DNA of 64,000 nucleotides from Oceanicaulis alexandrii DSM 11625 (GTDB lineage Bacteria > Pseudomonadota > Alphaproteobacteria > Caulobacterales > Maricaulaceae), in contig NZ_ATUP01000002.1 in NCBI RefSeq assembly GCF_000420265.1, forward strand, positions 188,501 through 252,500, written 5' to 3'. The stretch's first letter is position 1. Every line of letters starts with the position of its first letter. Of this stretch, positions 43,210 through 55,372 are shown in pieces. A program made the translations under genes and the position numbers. A model generated the notes under the pieces. That model had not been told where the DNA came from. It searched no databases and was given only the letters and a program-made list of their open reading frames with translations.

Positions 43210-43941
43210 TTAGTTCGAATTGAACACCTGATCGGCCAACGCGTATGCGAACGCGTTGTCGAGCGGCAGGATGTTTCGAATGTAAAGCTCTGTAAAATCG
43301 TTGATTTCAGCGATTGCAGTGCGCGGTGCGAAGACGATGTCATGCCGGGCGAGCGGAATGGTGTCCGCCGGCGCGCCTTGTTGGGCGTCACGCACATTGA
43401 CCGTCCGCATCATGACGCCGCCGTTTTCCGCGCGGCGCAGAACGACCACCTGACGCAGCCGCGCGCGATTATTGGCGCCGCCGGCGAGAGTCAGGGCTTC
43501 CAGCACGCCCATGCGTGCGCTGATCATCTCATAAACGCCGGGGCTGCGCACTTCGCCGCCCACCAGGATCTGCTGCGCGCCATAGCTGACGGGCCGCACT
43601 TCCACGATCGGGTCACGCAGAACACGCACATACCGATCCGCAATGGCGCGCGCCGCTTCGGGGCCCGTCATCTGCGCCACCATCACCGATCCCGCCAACG
43701 GCAGGCTGACGCGGCCATCGGGACCGACGGGCAGGGTGCGATTGAGTTCTTCTGCCGTGTGGACCACCACCTCCACCTCGTCGCCCGGAAACAGGCGATA
43801 GGCGGGCGCGGTCTCGTCCCAGCTCTGAAACCGGTTCGGTTCAAAGCCGGCTTGCGGCGTTTGACGCGGGGATCCCGCGCACGCGCCCAGCATCAAAACG
43901 CCCAGACCGGACAAGACAGACCGTCGTGTTGGCGAATTCAT
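43210..43941 (-). CDS. hfsD: Polysaccharide export lipoprotein, Wza/HfsD-like
   Basis: The 243-residue protein has a lipoprotein signal with a twin-arginine look (TRRSVLSGLGVLMLGAC, lipid Cys21). The poly_export domain follows (YRLFPGDEVEVVVHTAEELN, VGPDGRVSLPLAG) and then a SLBB domain (QQILVGGEVRSPGVYEM). It should form the outer-membrane pore. It is divergent from the co-polymerase gene, as hfsD and hfsA belong together in Caulobacter. The ATG at 43941 follows GGGGAG. The symbol rests on context. Confidence 0.82.
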   Translation of the reverse strand: MNSPTRRSVLSGLGVLMLGACAGSPRQTPQAGFEPNRFQSWDETAPAYRLFPGDEVEVVVHTAEELNRTLPVGPDGRVSLPLAGSVMVAQMTGPEAARAIADRYVRVLRDPIVEVRPVSYGAQQILVGGEVRSPGVYEMISARMGVLEALTLAGGANNRARLRQVVVLRRAENGGVMMRTVNVRDAQQGAPADTIPLARHDIVFAPRTAIAEINDFTELYIRNILPLDNAFAYALADQVFNSN

Positions 43942-43985
43942 GCTCGCGACTCCCCTAATCAGATCTTCACCATGATTGGCGGCGG

Positions 43986-44000
43986 CTAAGGAAAAATTAA
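43986..44000. promoter_or_regulatory. Possible CtrA-binding site between hfsD and hfsA
   Basis: On the minus strand the sequence reads TTAA-N7-TTAG, one base away from the CtrA consensus TTAA-N7-TTAA. It sits in the 82-base gap between the divergent hfsD and hfsA starts. One such match can arise by chance, though a master cell-cycle regulator acting on adhesion genes would be sensible in this lineage. Confidence 0.3.
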
Positions 44001-44023
44001 GCGCAATCACGCCAGATGCACCT

Positions 44024-45508
44024 ATGACGTCAATGTCTTCTGACTCCACCGCCCAGAGGCGGGCGCGGCGCGAGCTGGATCTTGTGGATCTGGTCGCGAT
44101 TGCATGGACGCAGCGCCTGTTCATCATCCTGATTACGCTCATTGTTTTCATCCCGCTGGCGGTGATGGCGTATCTGAGCCTGACCCCGACCTATACGGCG
44201 GGCAGCCGTTTGCTGGTGATCATGGATGACGAGGACCTGACGCCTGGCGCCGCCGGCGCCGGCGGTGAATTCATGTTTGACCAGATCATGCAGTCTGAAG
44301 CCGATCTTCTGGCGTCCGAGGAAGTGCGTCGCCGCATGCTGATCGAGCTGACAGGATTTGCAGATCCTGAACAACTGAAAAGCCTGGGCGAGGGGTTCGG
44401 CGTCAGCCGTGCGCCGAACGCGAGTTTTCTGATCGCGACCTTCAGGAATGAAGACGCTGACGTGGCCGCCAATACGGTCAACGCCATTGTCGACGCTTAT
44501 TTGCGGTATCGGGTGGAGCTTCTGACCGGCGGGTTCGAGGGCGGAGTGCAAGCCCGCCTCGACGCCGCCGAGCGCGATGCGCTGAGCGCCCAGCAAAGCC
44601 TGCAGGCGTTTCGGGCTGAGAACGGCATCGCTGATTTTGAGACCGAGATGAATTCCGCCCTGGGGCGGCTGGCCGATCTCCAGGGGCGCAAACTGGCGGC
44701 GGAAGCGGATGCGTCCCAGGCCCGCGCCCTGGCGCGTGCGCTTGAAGACCGGTTGGCGAATATCCCGCAAACGATTGAGCTTTATGTCGAGAACTCCGTG
44801 ACGGGGCGGCTCCTGGATTTGCAGGTGCGTCAGGCGGACTTGCTGGCGCGTTACCAGCCTGACGCCCCGCCGGTCCAAGCGGTCGAGCGTGAAATCGAGG
44901 CGCTGGAGCGGTTCGTGCGAGAGGGCCGCGCCAATGGCCAGGGCCAGCGTCGGACCGGTGTGAACCCGATCTGGCAGGAGCTGGAATCATCGCGGCTGCA
45001 ACAAGAATCAAACGCCGCCGGGCAAGCCCGGCTGGCCGCGTCATTGGCGGCACAGCTCAATGCCGCTCGCGCGGATGTGGAGCGCTTGCGGGCGCTTCAG
45101 CCAGAGTATGAGCGCCTGACACGAGCCGTGCAGGCGCGCTCCACGGCGGCGGAGCTGCTTTCGGTGCAGGCGGCGGACGCCATGGCGCGACGCGACATGC
45201 CGCCGGGCGGCGCGGACGCCATTCGCATCGTGTCGCGCGCAACGCCGCCGGTGCAGGCGCAATCGAAACGCAAGCTGGCCGTGATGGCGGTGGGCGTGCT
45301 GGCGGGGGGGATCGCGCTGCTGCTGGGGTTGATCCGCGGTTATGTCGCGGCGGTGCGTGATGACACGCCGCCGCAGCGCCCTGTGCCGCCTGAAGACCGT
45401 CCGCAACCCGATGAAGACCCTGAGCCGCAACAGACAGCTCATCGTGCTGAAACCGCGCCTCGTCGCAAGCCCTTGCCCGTACTGGCGCGGGTCAGCGACG
45501 CGCCCTGA
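44024..45508 (+). CDS. hfsA: Polysaccharide co-polymerase, Wzc/HfsA-like without kinase domain
   Basis: The 494-residue inner-membrane protein has a helix at about 31-53, a Wzz-type N-terminal domain (PTYTAGSRLLVIMDDEDL) and a long periplasmic coiled-coil region (about 165-395, rich in Ala, Leu, Arg, Glu). A second helix lies at about 410-430, followed by a Pro/Glu/Arg-rich cytoplasmic tail. There is no Walker motif; the separate HfsB-like protein fills that place. It should set chain length and link polymerase to export pore. The ATG at 44024 is chosen; ATG 44033 and TTG 43976 are alternatives. Confidence 0.8.
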   Translation: MTSMSSDSTAQRRARRELDLVDLVAIAWTQRLFIILITLIVFIPLAVMAYLSLTPTYTAGSRLLVIMDDEDLTPGAAGAGGEFMFDQIMQSEADLLASEEVRRRMLIELTGFADPEQLKSLGEGFGVSRAPNASFLIATFRNEDADVAANTVNAIVDAYLRYRVELLTGGFEGGVQARLDAAERDALSAQQSLQAFRAENGIADFETEMNSALGRLADLQGRKLAAEADASQARALARALEDRLANIPQTIELYVENSVTGRLLDLQVRQADLLARYQPDAPPVQAVEREIEALERFVREGRANGQGQRRTGVNPIWQELESSRLQQESNAAGQARLAASLAAQLNAARADVERLRALQPEYERLTRAVQARSTAAELLSVQAADAMARRDMPPGGADAIRIVSRATPPVQAQSKRKLAVMAVGVLAGGIALLLGLIRGYVAAVRDDTPPQRPVPPEDRPQPDEDPEPQQTAHRAETAPRRKPLPVLARVSDAP

Positions 45509-45577
45509 CGCGGAAGCGCTCCGTTAACCATTCGCGCATACATCTGTCTGTTGAGTAAACAGGCGTGGTCGTCGCGT

Positions 45578-46192
45578 ATGAGCATCGAGCGTGAACTTGA
45601 GGGGCTGGCCCGGCGGTTGTCACCGCAGGGGATGAGCTCGCGCGCCGTCATGGTCGCGCCCGTCAGCGCCTCGGCCGGCGCTTCCACCATTGCGGCGGGT
45701 TTGGCGCGCGCCGCTGTGGCGCAAGGCGTCAAGCCGGTCTGGCTCTATGATCTCGATTTCAAGAACAACCCCCAGTCAGACGCTTTCCGGCTGAACGGGC
45801 AGGCGTATTCCGGGGCTTTGTCGGGGCGGCGCTTCTGGCGGACGGTTCCAGACAATGCCGGGCGTGTGGCGCTGCGGCGGGTCGAGGATCAGCCGATCTA
45901 TGTCAGCCGGTTCGAACGCGCGCCCGGACAGGTTCGCAGCCTGACATTCCTCGACAATCCTGACTATTGGGACCGCGCACGCCACAGCGCCGGCCTGACC
46001 GTCGTTGACGCGTCCTATCAAAGCGCTGCGATCGCGCTGATCGCGCCGAACATGGACGGGGTCATTCTGGTCGCCGATGCGCGCACCGATAGTCGGGCGG
46101 CGACGGAAGCCGCCGCCGACCACTTGCGAGCGCAGGGAGCGCAGGTCTGGGGCGTGGTCGTCAACCGCGCCCGGACAGCGGCGCGGGCGTGA
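45578..46192 (+). CDS. hfsB: HfsB-like CpsD/ParA-fold protein with lost Walker A lysine
   Basis: The 204-residue protein has the fold pattern of the cytoplasmic ATPase that partners Wzc-type co-polymerases: VMVAPVSASAGASTIAAGLARA, then VWLYDLDFKNNP and GVILVADARTDSRAA. The P-loop GxGKST is changed to SxGAST, so the ATP-binding lysine is missing. There is also no tyrosine-rich tail. It is therefore probably a non-catalytic partner of HfsA. The start is ATG 45578; a TTG at 45551 is possible. Its stop overlaps the next start as GTGA. Confidence 0.75.
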   Translation: MSIERELEGLARRLSPQGMSSRAVMVAPVSASAGASTIAAGLARAAVAQGVKPVWLYDLDFKNNPQSDAFRLNGQAYSGALSGRRFWRTVPDNAGRVALRRVEDQPIYVSRFERAPGQVRSLTFLDNPDYWDRARHSAGLTVVDASYQSAAIALIAPNMDGVILVADARTDSRAATEAAADHLRAQGAQVWGVVVNRARTAARA

Positions 46193-47439
46193 GCGCGTTT
46201 GCGCTGGCGGATCGCTGGCGCGAATCCCTACCGCGATTTCGCTTTGCGCTGGCGCTTGAGACCGGGCTCGCGGTCTTTCTGATCTTCATGTTTTCAAGCG
46301 CCCTGTTCTCGCTGATCTTTGGCGGGGATGAAGAGGGCAGTCCGATCCTGCGGCTGATCTGGCCGCCGGTCTATCTTCTGACCTTGATCCTTGTGGTGGT
46401 GCGTCCGATGCCGGTGCTCGGCCTGATGGTGCGCGCCTGGCCGCTTCTGATCCTCGCTGCTTTGCCCATGATTTCAGCCTTCTGGTCGCTGGACGCCGGG
46501 TTGAGCCTGCGGCGGGGTTTGGGCGTTCTGATGCCGGCGGTGTTCGGGATGTGGCTGGCGAGCCGGTATTGCTGGACCGACCTGATCCGCCTGCTGGCGC
46601 TGTCGCTGGGCGTGCTGGCGGTCGGCTCTCTGATCATGGCCGTGGCGTTTCCTGCCTATGGCGTGATGAGCGAGGTCCACCCTGGCGCCTGGGCGGGCCT
46701 GTGGGAGCAGAAAAACCGGCTGGGCGCGGTGATGGCGATCGCCACAATGGGCGGCATGGCGGCCGCTTTGACGACGCCGTATCGCACCGAGGTTCGATAT
46801 TGGGGCGCTCTGGTGATCCTGGCGGTCTTCCTGGTGCTGATGTCGACCTCCAGGACGGCGTTGATGGCTTGCATGATCGGCTTTGGCGGGCCGCTGATGA
46901 TCTATTTCGCGCGCCAGGGCTTCGTTATGGCCGCGCTTGCGGTGTTCAGCGGTTTGGCGGGCGTGTTTGCGCTGACGCTTGTGATCGCGATCGGGCCGGG
47001 CGTCATTCTCGAAGCGCTCGGGCGCGACCCGACCCTGACCGGCCGCACGGACATCTGGGCGGGGCTGATCGGCGCCGTGGCCGAGAAACCCTGGACAGGG
47101 TTTGGCTGGGGCGTGTTCTGGCTGGAAGAGGAAGGTCCGGTTTACTGGGTGCGTCAGGCGACCCAGTGGGAGGTGCCGTCCGCGCACAATTCCTGGCTGG
47201 AGATCGCGCTCGGCCTGGGCGTTCCGGGGGCGGCTCTGGCGTTCGGCGTGTATCTTCTGGGGCTGGGCGCGTCTCTGAAACGCCTGTTTTCCGGCGTCGA
47301 GACCTATTGGGCGCTGCCCGGCATGGCGATCTGGGGGCTGACCAGCATGTCGGAAAGCATTTTCATGACCACGAACGGCTTCACCTGGCTGCTGTTCTGC
47401 CTCACCTTCAGCAAGCTCTGCGCCCGCCGGGAAGACTAG
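46189..47439 (+). CDS. hfsC: O-antigen ligase/polymerase family protein, HfsC-like
   Basis: The 416-residue membrane protein has about ten helices. The Wzy/O-antigen ligase core is seen as TGRTDIWAGLIGAVAEKPWTGFGWG followed by the large periplasmic loop and VPSAHNSWLEIALGLGVPG with the conserved His. It should join repeat units of the polysaccharide in the periplasm. It is the last gene of hfsA-hfsB-hfsC and overlaps the stop of the convergent glycosyltransferase in CTAG. Symbol from context. Confidence 0.8.
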   Translation: MSAFALADRWRESLPRFRFALALETGLAVFLIFMFSSALFSLIFGGDEEGSPILRLIWPPVYLLTLILVVVRPMPVLGLMVRAWPLLILAALPMISAFWSLDAGLSLRRGLGVLMPAVFGMWLASRYCWTDLIRLLALSLGVLAVGSLIMAVAFPAYGVMSEVHPGAWAGLWEQKNRLGAVMAIATMGGMAAALTTPYRTEVRYWGALVILAVFLVLMSTSRTALMACMIGFGGPLMIYFARQGFVMAALAVFSGLAGVFALTLVIAIGPGVILEALGRDPTLTGRTDIWAGLIGAVAEKPWTGFGWGVFWLEEEGPVYWVRQATQWEVPSAHNSWLEIALGLGVPGAALAFGVYLLGLGASLKRLFSGVETYWALPGMAIWGLTSMSESIFMTTNGFTWLLFCLTFSKLCARRED

Positions 47440-48347
47440 GCGTTTGCGCCGTACAGACGCGGCGAGCAGGCTTCAAACCAGATCAGCTTGCCCAGGCCCT
47501 GCGCGGCCTTGTCCAGACATTCGGCGGCAGCCTTCGCTGAGATCAGCCGGGCCAGCGGCGCACAGGCGCCGAAGACCAGCACTTGCGCCGCGCCGACGCC
47601 CATCCAGAACGCGACTCCCGCCCAGTTGCCTGGGCTCTGCGCGCTGGTTTGCGTTGGCCCCTGACCATAGGCGAAGCTGCGTTGCAAAAGCTTGCCCCAG
47701 CTTTGCCGCGGGGCCTGAACATGCTCATAGACATCTGCTTGCGCCGCCCAGCCAAAGCGGACGCTCTGAGCCTGCAGTTTCTGAAACAGCATGTCGTCCT
47801 CGCCGCCGATTTCATTGGCGGCCTGGTCAAAGACGGGCGAGGGCAGATCCAGCGCTTCGCGGTCAAACAGGGCGTTGCCGCAGCCATGGGGCTTGTCGAT
47901 CACTTGAGTGTCTGATGAGCCCAGCCTTGAATAGAGCCGCTGCGTGTAGGCGGCGCGGACGCCGCGGGTCAGCGGGTCGGGCAGCTGTGCGATGACGGGG
48001 CCGAACACCACGGGCGCATTCAGCGTTTTGCGAGCGTCCAGAAGGCTTGCGAGCCAGTGCGGGCTGGCGGTTTCGTCATCATCCAGCTGGGCGATGAAAC
48101 GCGCCCGGGTGTGTGCAAACCCGGTATTGCGGGCATTGGAGACGCCCGGATTGGGTTCATGCACATAGGACAAACGCACCGGAGCGCCGTCAGCCAGCTG
48201 GTTGACGGCCTCTTGCGCGCCGGCCTGCGGGTCATTGTCGACGATGACGATTTCATCGGGCAGGCGGGTTTGCGCAAAGACGCTGCGCACAGCGTCCGCC
48301 AGCGCGTCATTGCGCCGATAGGTGGGGATCAGGACGGCGACGCTCAT
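47436..48347 (-). CDS. Family 2 glycosyltransferase, second in the cluster
   Basis: The 303-residue GT-A enzyme begins MSVAVLIPTYRRNDALADAV. It has nucleotide-binding VIVDNDPQ, the metal site AQLDDDETASP (DDD in place of DxD), and EIGGEDDMLFQ (catalytic-base region). It ends with a hydrophobic segment (about 250-275) that may hold it to the membrane. It starts by an ATGA overlap with hfsH. In Caulobacter, glycosyltransferases HfsG, HfsL and HfsJ extend the holdfast unit. This one may correspond to HfsL, but that is a guess. Confidence 0.82.
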   Translation of the reverse strand: MSVAVLIPTYRRNDALADAVRSVFAQTRLPDEIVIVDNDPQAGAQEAVNQLADGAPVRLSYVHEPNPGVSNARNTGFAHTRARFIAQLDDDETASPHWLASLLDARKTLNAPVVFGPVIAQLPDPLTRGVRAAYTQRLYSRLGSSDTQVIDKPHGCGNALFDREALDLPSPVFDQAANEIGGEDDMLFQKLQAQSVRFGWAAQADVYEHVQAPRQSWGKLLQRSFAYGQGPTQTSAQSPGNWAGVAFWMGVGAAQVLVFGACAPLARLISAKAAAECLDKAAQGLGKLIWFEACSPRLYGANA

Positions 48348-49135
48348 GCGCGCGCCTCGATCGCGGCGAGGGCGTCTGATTGCGTCATCACCTGGGCGCC
48401 CGATTGTTCGACGGCGTGCAGGACTACGTCCAGAAACTCCGGCGTACAGCCCCATTCAGAGGGCTGTTTCTGGATGTCGTGGCCATAAAAGATAAGCCAG
48501 CCCGGATTGCGGGCCGCATCCTTGACCGCGGCGACGGCGCGTTTCAGTCCCTCCTCACCGCCATCCAGCGGCACGGATCTGAGCAGACCGCGATCCGCGA
48601 CTCCGCGATTGATGCCGGGTTGCACGCCGCGCAGGCTTGAGTAGGTCTCAAGCAAACGCTTCTTGGCGTGCGGCGTCGCTTCCCCATAGGCGAAAGCGTA
48701 GCTTGTCGGCGCGTCATCAAGGCCGGCCGCCTTCAGATAGGCGCGATTGCGCGCGGCGTCCGCCGCCACGGCTTCCGCGGGCAGACGCGACGCATCGAGA
48801 TGACTGTAGCCGTGACAGGCGATCTCATGACCGTCGGATTTGAGGCTCAGAAGGTCCTCGGCATCAAAAAGTTCGCCATGATGATTGGTGATCCCTGCGA
48901 GCCCCCCGCTCACATAGAATGTTCCGCGCCAGCCACGTGCTTTCAGCCGCACGGCGCCCAGCTCCAGTGCGGAGCGCGGAAAATCGTCAAAGGTGAAGGT
49001 GACGACAGGACGGTCGAGATTGATCCTGAGCGGCGTCACGCCCAGTCGGCGGGCGATCTGTTGTTGAACACGGCCCGCTAATCCACCGCGCGGGCGGTAG
49101 ACGACGTCATCGGGATTATAATCAGTCTGGGTCAT
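48344..49135 (-). CDS. hfsH: Polysaccharide deacetylase, HfsH-like
   Basis: The 263-residue NodB-fold (CE4) enzyme has TFTFDDFPRSA with catalytic Asp50 and metal-binding Asp51, and CHGYSHLDAS with metal ligands His108 and His112. It also has a late motif LIFYGHDIQKQPSEWG with the second catalytic His. It should remove acetyl groups from N-acetylglucosamine in the polysaccharide, which is needed for adhesion and cohesion in Caulobacter. The start overlaps the next glycosyltransferase stop by four bases. No signal peptide is seen, consistent with cytoplasmic action. Confidence 0.85.
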   Translation of the reverse strand: MTQTDYNPDDVVYRPRGGLAGRVQQQIARRLGVTPLRINLDRPVVTFTFDDFPRSALELGAVRLKARGWRGTFYVSGGLAGITNHHGELFDAEDLLSLKSDGHEIACHGYSHLDASRLPAEAVAADAARNRAYLKAAGLDDAPTSYAFAYGEATPHAKKRLLETYSSLRGVQPGINRGVADRGLLRSVPLDGGEEGLKRAVAAVKDAARNPGWLIFYGHDIQKQPSEWGCTPEFLDVVLHAVEQSGAQVMTQSDALAAIEARA

Positions 49136-50070
49136 GTGCGCCCCTTGGGCAGATCGCGGGCGGCGGCGCCCGCTCGGTAGAGTTTCAACGCCAGAACGCG
49201 GATCTTCAGCGGCGCCCAGGCGGTTTTCGCCAGCGCCTTGCCCATTAGACGGGCGAGCTTGGCCAATCCCGTCGCTTGCACTTTACGGGCCAGCCGCGCG
49301 CCGGGACGGCTCTCATAGTCGGGATGACGGATGAGGAGCCGCGCGAAATTGGCGCCCGCGCGGTCAAACTTGTCGAGCAAGGTTGAAACGTCCTGAAGGC
49401 CGCCATGGGCGGCGGGAGCGTCCACATGGCCCAGTTCGCCGCGTTTGGACGCGCTGAGCGCCCAGTCCACATCTTCCCAGCCCCATCCTGTATAGCCTTC
49501 GTCAAAGCGGCATTGGGCGAACAGGCTGGCGCGAACTGCGAGATTTGAGGAGCAGACCGCCGCCGCGCCCAAGGCCGATCGCGTGGCCGCGTCTGGCGCG
49601 TCAGACGCATGGGCGAGCGCGGCGTGGACTGTTTCATGAGCAGACCGGGGCGTGCTTGGCGCATATCCGCCGAACAGGGCGTCACAGCTTGTCTCGGCGA
49701 GATGGTGACGCCAGCGCGCGAGAAATCCGGGCTCGACCTCCATGTCGGCGTCCAGAAACAGCAGCCACGCGCCCTGGGCCGCGTCGCCGAGCTGATTGCG
49801 GGCGGCAGAGCGACCCAGATTTTTCGGGCTGGTGATCAGCCTGATTGCAGCCTCGGACCCCAGCACGGCGTTTTTCACACAGTTAGAGAGGGCCGGGTCC
49901 GGAACACCGTCGTCAAACAGGATAATCTCGGTTTGCAGATCCGTCTGACGGCTAAGAGCCTCAAGCAAGGGGCGGGGATCATCGCCATAAAACGGGATCA
50001 GCACCGACAGGGCGACCGCATGAGTGTCAGCGGCGGATGAGCGCGTCATCTGGAGATCCTGAACGGTCAT
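49132..50070 (-). CDS. hfsG: Family 2 glycosyltransferase, HfsG-like by position
   Basis: The 312-residue GT-A enzyme has VALSVLIPFYGDDPRPLLEAL, ILFDDG, KNLGRSAARNQLGDAA, LFLDADMEVEPGF (the DxD metal site) and GYTGWGWEDVDWALSA (the catalytic-base ED). The position between flippase and deacetylase matches hfsG in Caulobacter. The ATG at 50070 overlaps the flippase stop as ATGA. The symbol is based on order, not on a measured match. Confidence 0.75.
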   Translation of the reverse strand: MTVQDLQMTRSSAADTHAVALSVLIPFYGDDPRPLLEALSRQTDLQTEIILFDDGVPDPALSNCVKNAVLGSEAAIRLITSPKNLGRSAARNQLGDAAQGAWLLFLDADMEVEPGFLARWRHHLAETSCDALFGGYAPSTPRSAHETVHAALAHASDAPDAATRSALGAAAVCSSNLAVRASLFAQCRFDEGYTGWGWEDVDWALSASKRGELGHVDAPAAHGGLQDVSTLLDKFDRAGANFARLLIRHPDYESRPGARLARKVQATGLAKLARLMGKALAKTAWAPLKIRVLALKLYRAGAAARDLPKGRT

Positions 50071-51524
50071 GCCGCAGCCCTCCGCCCCAGACGGGTTGCG
50101 ATCCTCGCGCCCAGCCAACGTCGCGCACCGAGCCCGTCCAGCGCCAGCAAGATCACAGCATAGATAAGCGCCCCAAATGCGACGTGCACGGCGAGATCGG
50201 TGATCACCAATCCGGTCGGGGGCGCGTAGGCCAGAGCGACGGCCATGCCCGCCGTGGCGAGCGCGGCCTTGCTCCATTCGCGCAACGGAATTGGCATGGG
50301 GAAAATGCTCCGTCCGTGAATGGCGCAGGCGACAAGCGCGATGGCGTAGGCGGCGACGGTCGCCCAGGCGGCGCCATATAGCCCCAGAAGCGGGATCAGG
50401 AGCGCGTTCAGAGCCAGGTTGAGCACGGCGGAACCGGTCATGATGAACGCCATGGAGCCGGTGCGGCGGCCCAGCGTGTAGGCGGTATGAAAGTAGTGGG
50501 TCATGATGCCGTTCATCAGCCCTGACAAGGCGATCAGCGGCACGATGGAGGCCGCGCTTTCGGCCAGCTCTTCCCCGATCATCAGCCGCGCCAGATCGGG
50601 CGAAACGAGCGCCAGCCCGGCGGCGGCGGGAAAGCCGATGGCGCCCATCAGCGCGCCGGTGCGGCGGGCGACGTCTTGCGCCGCCTTGCGGCCGTCATGT
50701 TCCAGCGCGGAGATCAGCAAGGGCCCGGTTGTCATGCCCAGCCACAAGAACACGATGCTGAGCGAACGGTCCGCCAGCGCATAACCCGCCGCATAGGCGC
50801 CGGTGGCGGCTTCACCCAGATAGGCGGCGATCAGGAACCGGTCGCCGCTGGTCAGAAGCTGTTCGAAGATCAAGGAAAAGGCGATGGGTCCGCCATAGGC
50901 GAAAAAGGCGGTGATGCGGACGCTATGGGCGCGGTCGCGTTTGGCTTTGCGCGCCAGGGCGGGCAGGTCAAAGACCAGCGCCAGACCCGACGCCAGAGCG
51001 AGACCGGCCAGCGGACCCGCCGAACCCAGATCGGTCAAAAGCGTCAACGCGGCGCCAAAGGCGAACCCGCCCGCCAGCGAGAACGTTTCAAGCGCCGAAT
51101 ACCGCCAGGCTTCGCCGGCGGCGCGGCGTGTTTCGAGCGCGATCATGACGCCGGCGCGCAACAGCAGATAGGCGAGCGCATAAGCGCTGGCGGTCTTCAA
51201 TGCGGGCGGCAGGTCGAGCGCCAGCAAGAGAAGGCCGCCCAGAATGGCGACCGGCGCGGCGATCAGTGCAAACAGGGTGAGGGCGGTGAACAAATGCCCG
51301 CCCAACCGGCCGCGGGCGCTGGCGCGGGCGTGATAACGCGCCACGGCGGCGTCCAGCCAGGTGAAGATCAGGGTGCTGATCAGCGCCGAGCCCGTCAGCA
51401 CCAGCATGTACTGGCCATAGGCGTCCGGCGTCAGCAGTCGGGTGAACACGACCACGCTGCCAAAGCCCACAAGAGCCTGGGCCAGATAGACCGGCAGGTA
51501 AGCCAGAAGATGACGGTTCAACAT
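50067..51524 (-). CDS. hfsF: Lipopolysaccharide flippase (Wzx/MOP family), HfsF-like
   Basis: The 485-residue protein has about fourteen hydrophobic helices. It begins MLNRHLLAYLPVYLAQALVGFGSVVVFTRLL (in part) and keeps the MOP pattern TPDAYGQYMLV. It should flip undecaprenyl-linked repeat units across the inner membrane. It is first in the minus-strand operon flippase-GT-deacetylase-GT, all joined by 4-base overlaps. The ATG at 51524 is chosen since the hydrophobic start fits the family. The 191-base gap to the divergent acyltransferase gene shows no clear promoter. Confidence 0.83.
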   Translation of the reverse strand: MLNRHLLAYLPVYLAQALVGFGSVVVFTRLLTPDAYGQYMLVLTGSALISTLIFTWLDAAVARYHARASARGRLGGHLFTALTLFALIAAPVAILGGLLLLALDLPPALKTASAYALAYLLLRAGVMIALETRRAAGEAWRYSALETFSLAGGFAFGAALTLLTDLGSAGPLAGLALASGLALVFDLPALARKAKRDRAHSVRITAFFAYGGPIAFSLIFEQLLTSGDRFLIAAYLGEAATGAYAAGYALADRSLSIVFLWLGMTTGPLLISALEHDGRKAAQDVARRTGALMGAIGFPAAAGLALVSPDLARLMIGEELAESAASIVPLIALSGLMNGIMTHYFHTAYTLGRRTGSMAFIMTGSAVLNLALNALLIPLLGLYGAAWATVAAYAIALVACAIHGRSIFPMPIPLREWSKAALATAGMAVALAYAPPTGLVITDLAVHVAFGALIYAVILLALDGLGARRWLGARIATRLGRRAAA

Positions 51525-51715
51525 GGGCGGTTCAGAATCCGGATCAGCATGTGGCGCGCCATGCAAGAGCGCGACCGGTCCCAAGCTTGCCTCACAACAC
51601 TGAAAAACGGCTAAACGCGCGTGATTTTGTGCCGAAGCGGGCCAGATCGGGCGTTCGCCAAGCCTTTGTTCAGTCTTGTCTGTCAGGACTGTCGCAGAAT
51701 GAAACGGGGACCGGG

Positions 51716-52801
51716 ATGCAGATGCTGAGCGTGGACGTGACAACACCTCAAGAGCTGAGCGCCACCGAGCGTAACGCCTGGCGCGCCATGACGGCGGTCA
51801 ATCCGCTCCTGAAAAGTCCGTATCAAACGCTGGGCTATCTTGACGCCATCTCGGCGGCGCGACCCGATATCCGTGTTGCGGTGATCCGCAAGAGCGCGCG
51901 CATTGCGGGCTTCTTCGCTTTCCAGAAAGGCCCGATGGGTCACGCTCGCGCCCCGGGCGGCGTCGTCAATGATTGCCATGGGATCATCTGCGCGCCCGAT
52001 GAAGACATCGCGCTGACGCATGTTCTGGCCCAGGCGAATATTGCGGTGTTCGACTTCCGCGACAGCCTTGCGGCGCAGGCGCCTTTCCGCCGTCATGCCG
52101 ACAGCGTTGAAGGCGGTTGGGTGATCGATGTGTCCGAGGGCTTTGACGCCTATGTGGCGAGCCGCAAGAAGCTGGGCGGCAATACGTTTCGCAGCGCCAT
52201 CGGCGCGCCGAAGAAGCTCGCCAAGGAAGGCGCGCTGACGTTCCGCTTTGATGATCGCCGACCCGAAACGCTTGAGGCGCTGTATGCGTGGAAGTCCGCG
52301 CAGTATCGCGAGTCCGGCTTTCCGGATCTGTTTGCGCTGAAATGGGTGCGCGATCTTCTGGAGCAACTCTGGCGGCAGGACCGCGCAGAGGGCGCAGGCC
52401 TGATGTCCACGCTGGAACTCGACGGCCGTCTGGCGGCGGTGCACTTCGGCCTGATTGGTCCTGAGGTGCTGCATTCGTGGTTTCCGGCCTATGACCCGGA
52501 CTTCGTCAAACTGACGCCCGGCAACGCCTTGTTGATCGAAATGCTTAAAGCGGGCGCCGAAGCGGGCGTGCATGAAGTGCATATGGGACCGGGCGAGGGG
52601 CGTCAGAAACAAGCCATGGGCTCGTTTCAGGAAGGCCTCGCCACCGGCTGCATAACCCAGCCCGGGCTTGTGGGCTGGACCCGCCAGATGGCGGGACGGA
52701 TCGAGAAGACGGCCGAGCCCTTGCCGCTGGGGCCGCTGGCGCGGGCGCCAGGCAAGGCGTTTCGCAAGATTGACCGGATCGCGGCGCTTTACGGCGTTTG
52801 A
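51716..52801 (+). CDS. GNAT/FemAB-like acyltransferase, HfsK-like
   Basis: The 361-residue protein has the doubled GNAT layout seen in BioF2/FemAB-like acyltransferases: NPLLKSPYQTLGYLDAI, an Arg-rich middle (KKLGGNTFRSAIGAPKKL), LYAWKSAQYRESG, and HFGLIGPEVLHSWFPAYDPDF ahead of TPGNALLIEML and MGPGEGRQKQAMGSF (segments given in part). In Caulobacter, HfsK of this fold modifies the holdfast polysaccharide and responds to c-di-GMP. That role is inferred here from place and fold. The start is ATG 51716 behind GGGGA; ATG 51722 is possible. Confidence 0.75.
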   Translation: MQMLSVDVTTPQELSATERNAWRAMTAVNPLLKSPYQTLGYLDAISAARPDIRVAVIRKSARIAGFFAFQKGPMGHARAPGGVVNDCHGIICAPDEDIALTHVLAQANIAVFDFRDSLAAQAPFRRHADSVEGGWVIDVSEGFDAYVASRKKLGGNTFRSAIGAPKKLAKEGALTFRFDDRRPETLEALYAWKSAQYRESGFPDLFALKWVRDLLEQLWRQDRAEGAGLMSTLELDGRLAAVHFGLIGPEVLHSWFPAYDPDFVKLTPGNALLIEMLKAGAEAGVHEVHMGPGEGRQKQAMGSFQEGLATGCITQPGLVGWTRQMAGRIEKTAEPLPLGPLARAPGKAFRKIDRIAALYGV

Positions 52802-52916: not shown

Positions 52917-53669
52917 ATGAGCATCCCAGCCCTGTCCATCGTCATTCCCGCCTTTAACGAAGCGGCCAGCATCGAAGAGGTGGTCAAGGAGGCGATCTCG
53001 GTCTTCTCTGAAGGGCTGGAGAGCTTTGAGATCATCGTGGTCGATGACGGCAGCGATGATGACACCGCTGGTGCGCTTGGCCCGCTCTCTGAGGCCGATC
53101 CGCGCGTGCGCGTCATCCGTCATCCCAACCGCTCCGGAAAAAGCGCCGGGCTGCGCACAGGATTCCTGGCGGCGCGCGCGATCTGGGTCGCGACCATGGA
53201 TGGCGACGGACAGGATGATCCGCGGTCGGTTCTGGAAATGAGCAAGGCGATTGATCTGTCGACCGTGGACACGGTGGGCGTGGTGGCCGGGTGCCGGCAA
53301 AACCGCACGGACGGGGCCAATCGCAAATTCGCGTCGCGCTTCGCCAATGGTCTGCGCCGCTCGCTCCTCAATGATGACTGTCCGGATACGGCCTGCGGCC
53401 TGAAAATCCTGCCGCGTGATCTGTTCCTTGTGATGCCCTTCTTTGACGCCATTCACCGCTATCTGCCCGCTCTGGCCGGGCATCTGGGCTTTGAAACGCT
53501 CAATGTCACCGTGGTGAACCGGCCGCGGGCGGCGGGCGAGAGCAAATACACCAATCTCGGCCGCGCGGCGGCGGGTCTGTTTGACCTGTTGGGCGTCATC
53601 TGGCTGATGCGTCGTACGCATTATCCGGATCCGCACATGCTGCTGGGCGCTCGGGGTGGAGATCGCTGA
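52917..53669 (+). CDS. Polyprenyl-phosphate glycosyltransferase (DPM1/ArnC-like GT2)
   Basis: The 250-residue GT-A enzyme has SIVIPAFNEAASIEEVV, VVDDGSDDDT, VATMDGDGQDDPRSV (metal site) and NRPRAAGESKYTNLGRA, the signature of dolichyl/undecaprenyl-phosphate sugar synthases. It has no C-terminal membrane helices. It should make a lipid-phosphate sugar for the GT-C enzyme encoded 2 bases downstream. The gap to the acyltransferase stop is 115 bases, with no terminator seen. Confidence 0.87.
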   Translation: MSIPALSIVIPAFNEAASIEEVVKEAISVFSEGLESFEIIVVDDGSDDDTAGALGPLSEADPRVRVIRHPNRSGKSAGLRTGFLAARAIWVATMDGDGQDDPRSVLEMSKAIDLSTVDTVGVVAGCRQNRTDGANRKFASRFANGLRRSLLNDDCPDTACGLKILPRDLFLVMPFFDAIHRYLPALAGHLGFETLNVTVVNRPRAAGESKYTNLGRAAAGLFDLLGVIWLMRRTHYPDPHMLLGARGGDR

Positions 53670-53671
53670 CC

Positions 53672-55372
53672 ATGACCGGTTTTATTTCATCACTGACTGA
53701 GCCGGGCCAAAGCGGCGGGCTGTCTCGCCGCGCCTGGATTGTGGTGATGTTGCTGGCGGTGATCGCGCACTTCCCCGGATTGTTCTCGATCCCGGCCATG
53801 GATCGCGATGAAGCGCGCTACGCCCAGGCCAGCCGGCAGATGATGGAAACCGGCGACTTCGTCGATATCCGCTTTCAGGACGATCCGCGCCACGTCAAAC
53901 CCAGCGGCATTTACTGGCTGCAGGTGATCACCACCCAGCCTTTCGGCGGTGAGACCGCCCCCATTGGCGCGCACCGCCTCCCCAGTTTTTTCGGGTCCCT
54001 GATCGCTGTGGCGCTGACCGCCTGGCTGGGCGCGCGATTGTTCTCGCCATCGGTGGGGCTGGTAGCCGGGATCGTGATGGGGCTCGGCCTCGCCATGCAG
54101 ATCGAGGCGCGCACCGCCAAGACTGACGCCGCCTTGCTGGCGGCGGGCATGTTCGCCCAGGTCGCGTTGGCCATGCTGATGCTGAAAGTGCAGGAGGCGA
54201 AGCCGAAGTTCTGGGGCTGGCCTGCAGTGCTTTGGGCGGGGACCGGAGCTGCGATCGCCATCAAGGGGCCGATCATCTTCATGGTCACGGCGCTGACCCT
54301 GATCGGGTTTGTCGCGCTGAAGCGTGATCTGAAACTTCTGCTTAAAATCAGGCCTTTGCCGGGTCTTCTTCTGGCTTGTGCGATCTTCCTGCCCTGGCTC
54401 ATCGCGATCAATATCCAGACCGACTGGGGCTTTTTCCAGGAAGCGGTGGGCCATGCCTTGTTCGGCAAGGTGGGCGTGGCGGACGACAGCCATGGCGGCC
54501 CGTTCGGCTATCATACCTTGCTGATGCCGGTGACGCTCTGGCCGGCGTCCGCGCTATTGGGGCTGGCAGGGCTGGCGGCCTGGGCGCGGCGCGGCGAGGC
54601 GGCGGTCCAGTTCCTTCTGGTGTGGATTTTGCCGTCCTGGCTAGTGTTTGAGTTGATCCAGACCAAGCTGCCTCATTATGTCTCGCCCATGTTCCCGGCC
54701 ATCGCCATTCTGATCGGTCTGGGTCTGGTGAACGCGAAGGCGCTGCTCAGCGGCTGGAAGCAATGGACGCTGTTTGGCGTCATCGCAGCGCTGGCCATTG
54801 TGGTGGGCGCGCTCGTGGGGCTGGTGCCCTGGATCGGCCAGATCGAGTTTGGCGAACCCGTCAGCCTCGCCAGCAAGGTCACGGCCGTGATGGGCGCTCT
54901 GGCGGTGATCAGCCTGGTCTGGCTGGCGTTCAAACCTGATCTGACGCGGCTTCTGGCGGTCAGCGTGGCCAGCGCGTCGGTCTATGTGGTCGCTTTTGGC
55001 GTCGCCATTCCCGGCGTCCACAAGCTGTGGCCGTCCTATAACGCCGCCCGCATCGCGGAGACCTTCACGGGCTGTGAGACGCTTAATGTGGCCACAGCAG
55101 GCTATCGCGAGCCGTCCAACGTCTTCAATTTCAGCACCGATGTCCTCTTGGGGCGCGATGGCGCGGAAACGGCGGCGTTCCTGCTGGCGCACCCGCAATG
55201 CGGTCTCGCTGTTGTGGACCAGTCTGAGCAGGCCGCTTTCGAGGCCGGACTCGAGGGCGCGGGTGTCCGTCAGCTCGCCGCGCTTGAGGGCTATAACGCG
55301 GTGAAGGGGCGGGATCTGACCTTGCGCTTTTACACGCTTGAAAACTCCGCTCTTCAGGCGCCGGCCCAATAG
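53672..55372 (+). CDS. GT-C glycosyltransferase, ArnT/PMT family
   Basis: The 566-residue membrane protein has about eleven to twelve hydrophobic helices. The first periplasmic loop carries the catalytic MDRDEARYA (Asp44, Glu47), followed by DDPRHVKPSGIYWLQ, both typical of ArnT. A periplasmic C-terminal domain follows. It uses a lipid-phosphate sugar made by its neighbour to glycosylate a periplasmic target, either lipid A or a polysaccharide. The acceptor cannot be told from sequence. No arnA/arnB genes are present here, so aminoarabinose is not indicated. Confidence 0.87.
   Translation: MTGFISSLTEPGQSGGLSRRAWIVVMLLAVIAHFPGLFSIPAMDRDEARYAQASRQMMETGDFVDIRFQDDPRHVKPSGIYWLQVITTQPFGGETAPIGAHRLPSFFGSLIAVALTAWLGARLFSPSVGLVAGIVMGLGLAMQIEARTAKTDAALLAAGMFAQVALAMLMLKVQEAKPKFWGWPAVLWAGTGAAIAIKGPIIFMVTALTLIGFVALKRDLKLLLKIRPLPGLLLACAIFLPWLIAINIQTDWGFFQEAVGHALFGKVGVADDSHGGPFGYHTLLMPVTLWPASALLGLAGLAAWARRGEAAVQFLLVWILPSWLVFELIQTKLPHYVSPMFPAIAILIGLGLVNAKALLSGWKQWTLFGVIAALAIVVGALVGLVPWIGQIEFGEPVSLASKVTAVMGALAVISLVWLAFKPDLTRLLAVSVASASVYVVAFGVAIPGVHKLWPSYNAARIAETFTGCETLNVATAGYREPSNVFNFSTDVLLGRDGAETAAFLLAHPQCGLAVVDQSEQAAFEAGLEGAGVRQLAALEGYNAVKGRDLTLRFYTLENSALQAPAQ

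Follow-up and report, generated by a model that had tools for sequence, protein, structure and literature searches.

A probable holdfast polysaccharide locus of recurrent layout in Oceanicaulis alexandrii, with a probable HfsL inside it and an HfsK-type acyltransferase lacking Arg112

The 64,000-nucleotide stretch of the Oceanicaulis alexandrii DSM 11625 genome analyzed here (the window; C2:188501-252500 of a 3.02-Mb, four-contig genome) harbors nine hfs-type genes between its positions 43210 and 52801. An earlier note, made from the sequence letters, had described them as a complete holdfast-type polysaccharide locus with an extra glycosyltransferase, and the nine reading frames are indeed found together at those coordinates with the expected Pfam domains. 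We consider it very probable that they constitute a standard holdfast polysaccharide locus of a member of the genus Oceanicaulis (Maricaulaceae) and that the supposedly extra glycosyltransferase is HfsL. The gene families, their layout, the recurrence of this layout and the partner genes elsewhere in the genome are direct observations. Throughout the text, G, C, L and f numbers are our own labels for genomes, contigs, loci and families.

The assignment to the holdfast pathway draws on several proteins. The best NCBIfam match of the flippase is HfsF at 411.6 bits, the next family, a Wzx model, reaching 24.5 bits; the best matches of the first glycosyltransferase and of the deacetylase are HfsG (237.2 bits) and HfsH (200.4 bits), respectively. 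The same genome carries hfaA, hfaB and hfaD side by side (C1:2616.7-2619.3 kb), all over the curated NCBIfam cut-offs (HfaA 81.7 bits against 50, HfaB 424.4 against 300 and HfaD 143.6 against 100), and the models concerned are by name those of holdfast anchoring proteins. Because HfsF, HfsG and HfsH are the best matches and the three hfa genes exceed their cut-offs, the locus is, as far as sequence can say, a holdfast locus, as the earlier note had supposed. The hfsD-A-B-C export and polymerase set is present with hfsF-G-H in the window (Pfam, NCBIfam), hfsF is co-conserved with HfsG, HfsH and HfsL among relatives, and an HfsF match is present in 125 of the 137 genomes of the window's family. 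Maricaulis maris (G171) and Glycocaulis abyssi (L075) have all nine genes in identical order and strand orientation, a recurrence that places the arrangement far beyond chance.

The layout departs in several details from the one first described. The gene for the outer-membrane polysaccharide export lipoprotein, hfsD (43210-43941, minus strand; 243 aa, Poly_export and SLBB above the Pfam cut-off, lipobox LMLGAC), holds a place conserved in relatives and stands back-to-back with hfsA rather than facing hfsABC. On the plus strand follow hfsA (43976-45508), encoding a Wzz-type co-polymerase (Wzz above the Pfam cut-off) that starts at TTG 43976 or ATG 44024, hfsB (45551-46192), encoding an AAA-fold accessory protein (AAA_26, 30.9 bits against a cut-off of 27) in which the Walker A motif GxxxxGK[ST] was looked for and not found, and hfsC (46189-47439), encoding a Wzy-type polymerase (Wzy_C above the Pfam cut-off). 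The minus-strand operon runs hfsF-hfsG-hfsH-glycosyltransferase, so that the statement that the glycosyltransferase follows hfsH stands and the order F-G-GT-H, given in the same place, does not. It comprises the Wzx-type flippase gene hfsF (50067-51524, likely start ATG 51524), the GT2 glycosyltransferase gene hfsG (49132-50070), the CE4 polysaccharide deacetylase gene hfsH (48344-49135; motifs TFDD and CHG in the protein) and the second GT2 gene (47436-48347; DDD at residues 89-91). With the starts taken here, successive genes of the operon overlap by 4 bp (50067-50070, 49132-49135 and 48344-48347), and the end of the last gene overlaps that of the convergent hfsC by another 4 bp (47436-47439). 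Back-to-back with hfsF, and hence outside the operon, lies the gene for a 361-aa GNAT/FemAB acyltransferase of HfsK type (51716-52801, plus strand; Acetyltransf_6 in Pfam), whose likely start is 51716 and not 51551 as originally given. The 191 bp between the two divergent genes (51525-51715) probably serve both the hfsF operon and the acyltransferase gene as promoter region. Exact TTAA-N7-TTAA sites, which we take to be a CtrA-like motif, number 0 in the window, against 0.03 expected.

According to a 2019 report, HfsL (CCNA_02360) is a GT2 glycosyltransferase required for the Caulobacter crescentus holdfast and joins HfsE, HfsJ and HfsG as the fourth transferase (PMC6372794); cc2278, a paralogue of hfsK, shares an operon with a transferase that the holdfast requires, according to a 2017 study (PMC5362036). 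The best match of the window's glycosyltransferase (47436-48347) in Caulobacter G101 (T5M6) is a GT2 at C95:174615 (E 3e-68; next match there 2.6e-26), to which it is 45% identical over nearly the full length, and that GT2, searched in turn against the genome of the window, matches the window protein alone (E 3.7e-69). This Caulobacter homologue adjoins an HfsK-family gene of the CC2278 type (L044/L089, L103). Among 120 genomes of the order, with presence set at 180 bits, a line chosen after the score gaps were seen, the glycosyltransferase occurs in 69 of the 70 genomes that bear hfsF and in none of the 50 others, and the sole hfsF genome without it (G041) has a fragmentary hfsF.

Of the 23 hfsF genomes of the window's family in this sample, 21 have the glycosyltransferase gene at most 10 kb from hfsF; the corresponding numbers for f3, f4 and f2 are 11 of 19, 6 of 17 and 0 of 10. 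Five of the six f2 genomes inspected (L052, L054, L055, L057, L062) group it with hfsG, hfsH and further hfs genes, hfsF lying apart; in the sixth, the 7.4-kb contig L058, it alone is seen. Neighbors were checked in 19 named loci of the 80 fetched: in four the gene stands amid hfs genes (Peiella sedimenti L164, Brevundimonas diminuta L160, a Ponticaulis metagenome-assembled genome (MAG) L161 and a Hyphomonadaceae MAG), in nine it adjoins an HfsK-family gene and in six neither was seen. The Caulobacter genomes G066, G091, G101 and G116 have it on another contig than hfsF, and one genome of the window's own family (G009) shows the Caulobacter arrangement, with the gene away from the locus and beside a CC2278-type gene (L051). 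The Caulobacter arrangement is thus one of several, the window needs no additional transferase, and its glycosyltransferase is best read as HfsL.

The second subject is the in-locus acyltransferase. The earlier note was right to place it inside the locus, but HfsK-type genes clustered with hfs genes were already in print in 2017 for Maricaulis, Oceanicaulis and Woodsholea, where they are called orthologues (PMC5362036), and our trees set the gene on a branch distinct from Caulobacter HfsK. An acyltransferase gene stands at hfsF in 13 of the 23 hfsF genomes of the family in the order sample and in at least 57 genomes in a search of 137 family genomes; the 57 copies read are a lower bound, two further ones being listed (G158:C610, G173:C39). 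Against NCBIfam the window protein hits no HfsK model, its sole match being a weak 'exception' model, and at a threshold of E 0.001 the genome holds only one other match of the acyltransferase family (C1:2129633), on a paralogue branch. The idea that the in-locus gene is the CC2278 gene, moved together with hfsL, was considered and rejected: in G009 an HfsK-type gene stands at hfsF (L064) and a separate CC2278-type gene by hfsL elsewhere (L051), and these two fall on different tree branches. A second acyltransferase of the in-locus branch was seen away from the hfs locus in the genus of Maricaulis maris (L178, L180, L182, L184, L312). Deletion of hfsK, which in Hirschia baltica is not part of the hfs locus, is reported to have no holdfast phenotype in that species (PMC8449245).

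The Caulobacter reference for HfsK was chosen by its arginines. A paralogue in Caulobacter G116 (L171) has Arg at 102, 112, 151, 240, 267 and 352-353 in the published numbering and, with a free offset, is alone among 122 acyltransferases in reaching all five core Arg positions; it was taken as HfsK because this pattern matches the positions in PMC5362036. In a midpoint-rooted tree of 76 acyltransferases, 46 of the 122 rows (hfsL-linked copies of named loci) having been left out for redundancy, a branch with support 100/99 separates the window protein and HfsK from the CC2278-type and remaining paralogues. In a midpoint-rooted tree of 102 acyltransferases, the in-locus copies (HfsK-B) and the HfsK copies form two separate branches (98/93 and 100/100); the HfsK (A) group, labeled in part by its Arg112 state, was then recovered as one side of a branch. 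Whether the two branches are sisters depends on the root, and one in-locus row (L295, from G123) has a long branch whose placement the program flagged as unsure. Eleven relatives carry both kinds, an in-locus copy at hfsF and a distal Caulobacter-type copy, each on its own branch; the simplest reading of the in-locus gene is therefore a paralogue, not a strict orthologue, of HfsK.

The two branches differ at a position implicated in the binding of cyclic di-GMP (c-di-GMP). The HfsK variant R112A binds c-di-GMP less well, stays on the membrane and still replaces the wild type, and the arginines of the C-terminal tail also matter for binding, as described in PMC5362036. The window protein has Val in the Arg112 column, and the 57 in-locus copies read have Val (38), Leu (14), Ile (3), Ala (1) or Met (1) and in no case Arg, which is absent also from eight further rows of that branch and present in 26 of 26 rows of the HfsK branch. 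The alignment at this column is supported by the Caulobacter paralogues, since Arg stands in the two CC1244-type rows (assigned by elimination) and Leu or Val in the two CC2278-type rows, in agreement with the published description (PMC5362036); here the in-locus branch resembles CC2278. These counts are not independent events, as one ancestral change explains them all. The C-terminal tail is kept, with Arg352 in 54 of 57 in-locus copies and Arg or Lys at 353 in all 57, and the preservation of these arginines speaks against a complete loss of c-di-GMP binding; the window protein retains Arg352 and has Lys for Arg353 (RK), the tails of the in-locus protein and HfsK reading ..EPLPLGPLARAPGKAFRKIDRIAALYGV and ..EALPLGRISELPGKAMRRIDLLRGLH.

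From these features one may predict that the in-locus protein ignores c-di-GMP. We tentatively propose, as a possibility short of a conclusion, that HfsK comprises two ancient paralogues, that HfsK-B, lacking Arg112, is unresponsive to c-di-GMP, and that the genes called orthologues in Maricaulis and Oceanicaulis are not Caulobacter's effector. If this is true, holdfast modification in Maricaulaceae would depend on expression of the locus and not on the second messenger. The competing view, that the in-locus protein is a strict orthologue of HfsK (CC3689) which c-di-GMP likewise detaches from the membrane and inactivates, we judge rather unlikely. It would account for the similar length and tail, for the 100/99 branch and for the term used in PMC5362036, in which, moreover, R112A weakened binding without abolishing it and the tail contributed as well. 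Against it stand the eleven genomes with both kinds, the uniform absence of Arg112 from the in-locus copies read, and a similarity to HfsK (138-155 bits, 27-29% identity, two Caulobacter proteins) just slightly above that to the CC2278-type (127-148 bits) and CC1244-type (104-136 bits) proteins. No mention of the paralogous in-locus branch or of its Arg112 loss was found in the literature within reach, which excluded subscription papers and supplements, the in-locus acyltransferase itself being already known.

The description of the locus as complete does not hold, since the window has neither an initiating sugar-phosphate transferase (PF02397) nor a WecG/TagA-type transferase (PF03808), and the HfsE and HfsJ candidates are unlinked to it. 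The genome's PF02397 matches lie at C1:1.037 Mb and C1:1.843 Mb, one in a 496-aa frame of HfsE size and the other in a shorter frame, and its only PF03808 (HfsJ-type) match lies at C1:1.103 Mb. A gene resembling Wzy_C/O-antigen ligase precedes the HfsE-size transferase (L208:5219-7962), and a second Poly_export gene and a second sugar-phosphate transferase some 15 kb apart (G000:C1:1827762-1843160; L210, L211) suggest another exopolysaccharide locus of the genome.

Several observations weigh against our interpretation. The HfsJ-type candidate is a weak match to its Caulobacter counterpart (28% identity, E 9e-11), and the 496-aa initiating transferase scores higher with WbaP (355 bits, under the cut-off) than with HfsE (107 bits). 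The second Poly_export gene (C1:1.828 Mb) and second PF02397 gene (C1:1.843 Mb) mean that the E and J assignments are not unique. The HfsF, HfsG and HfsH scores fall below their curated cut-offs of 700, 500 and 400 bits; the HfsF cut-off, which 8 of 120 genomes of the order pass, has probably been set too high for this family, in which 0 of 137 genomes pass it. The Caulobacter loci compared are those of C. vibrioides and other Caulobacter records, C. crescentus CB15/NA1000 itself not being among them. Our reading also takes CCNA_02360 (HfsL) to be CC2277, the gene beside CC2278.

That the glycosyltransferase at 47436-48347 adds a fifth sugar or a branch, giving a repeat unit unlike that of Caulobacter, is very unlikely. 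Its separation from hfsF in the four Caulobacter genomes would fit this reading, and its sugar specificity is not readable from the sequence. The clear copy in nearly every hfsF genome and the reciprocal match with the Caulobacter transferase that adjoins an HfsK paralogue argue against it, as does the fact that the Caulobacter protein matches this transferase only, the genome offering no separate HfsL candidate. With candidates, at the domain level for E and J, for all four Caulobacter transferase types, E, J, G and L, no extra sugar is implied. Least credible of all is a role of the locus in capsule or O-antigen synthesis, for although the Wza/Wzz/Wzy/Wzx architecture alone is common to such loci and the three Hfs models stay under their cut-offs, HfsF far outscores the next Wzx model, hfsF is co-conserved with HfsG, HfsH and HfsL, and the hfaABD genes of this genome exceed their cut-offs.

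For the holdfast locus, by analogy with the literature on C. crescentus and H. baltica, from which each enzymatic step is inferred, the unlinked HfsE-type and HfsJ-type transferases together with HfsG and HfsL would build an oligosaccharide on undecaprenyl phosphate. HfsH would deacetylate and the HfsK-type enzyme acylate this oligosaccharide, or the polymer; HfsF would flip the unit and HfsC polymerize it. HfsA, HfsB and HfsD would export the polymer, and HfaA, HfaB and HfaD, encoded elsewhere in the genome, would anchor the holdfast.

Downstream of the acyltransferase, the window encodes a polyprenyl-phosphate-type GT2 and a PMT-family protein (52917-55372, plus strand), probably a separate pair for lipid or lipopolysaccharide modification. 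The GT2 also follows the acyltransferase directly in three other members of the genus (L073, L314 and L319; 73, 69 and 95% identity), but in a fourth (L316) the 3.5 kb downstream of the acyltransferase do not contain it. Two genomes have two hfsF copies, 18 kb apart in G078 (C40:128952 and 147379) and each with an in-frame stop in G073.

In Caulobacter crescentus, the order is hfsE-F-G-H with hfsC-B-A-D, and hfsJ, hfsL and hfsK lie elsewhere. The window is like it in the pathway parts, in the E, J, G and L candidates and in the hfaABD anchor genes, and unlike it in having hfsL inside the locus, the E-type gene outside it and an HfsK-type gene back-to-back with hfsF; in Caulobacter G101 and G116 a PF02397-type match adjoins hfsF, whereas the window has none. 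Compared with HfsL (CCNA_02360), the window's transferase is alike in GT2 family and, through the presumed Caulobacter homologue in G101, in reciprocal best hit and 45% identity, and differs, as far as seen, in genomic place only. Our reading removes the false lead of an extra sugar and places the locus in a known, widespread layout. The window's acyltransferase shares with HfsK (CC3689) the Acetyltransf_6/GNAT (FemX-like) family, the length and the C-terminal tail, and differs in its separate paralogous branch, its Val for Arg112 and its 27-29% identity. As the in-locus branch resembles CC2278 at the Arg112 position, Maricaulis maris and other relatives may already harbor naturally varying c-di-GMP control of an enzyme that modifies an adhesin. 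To M. maris itself, with its HfsK-type gene among hfs genes in the nine-gene layout, no difference was seen. Overall, the holdfast locus of the window is an ordinary one whose layout is known, and it yields a single small lead on regulation.

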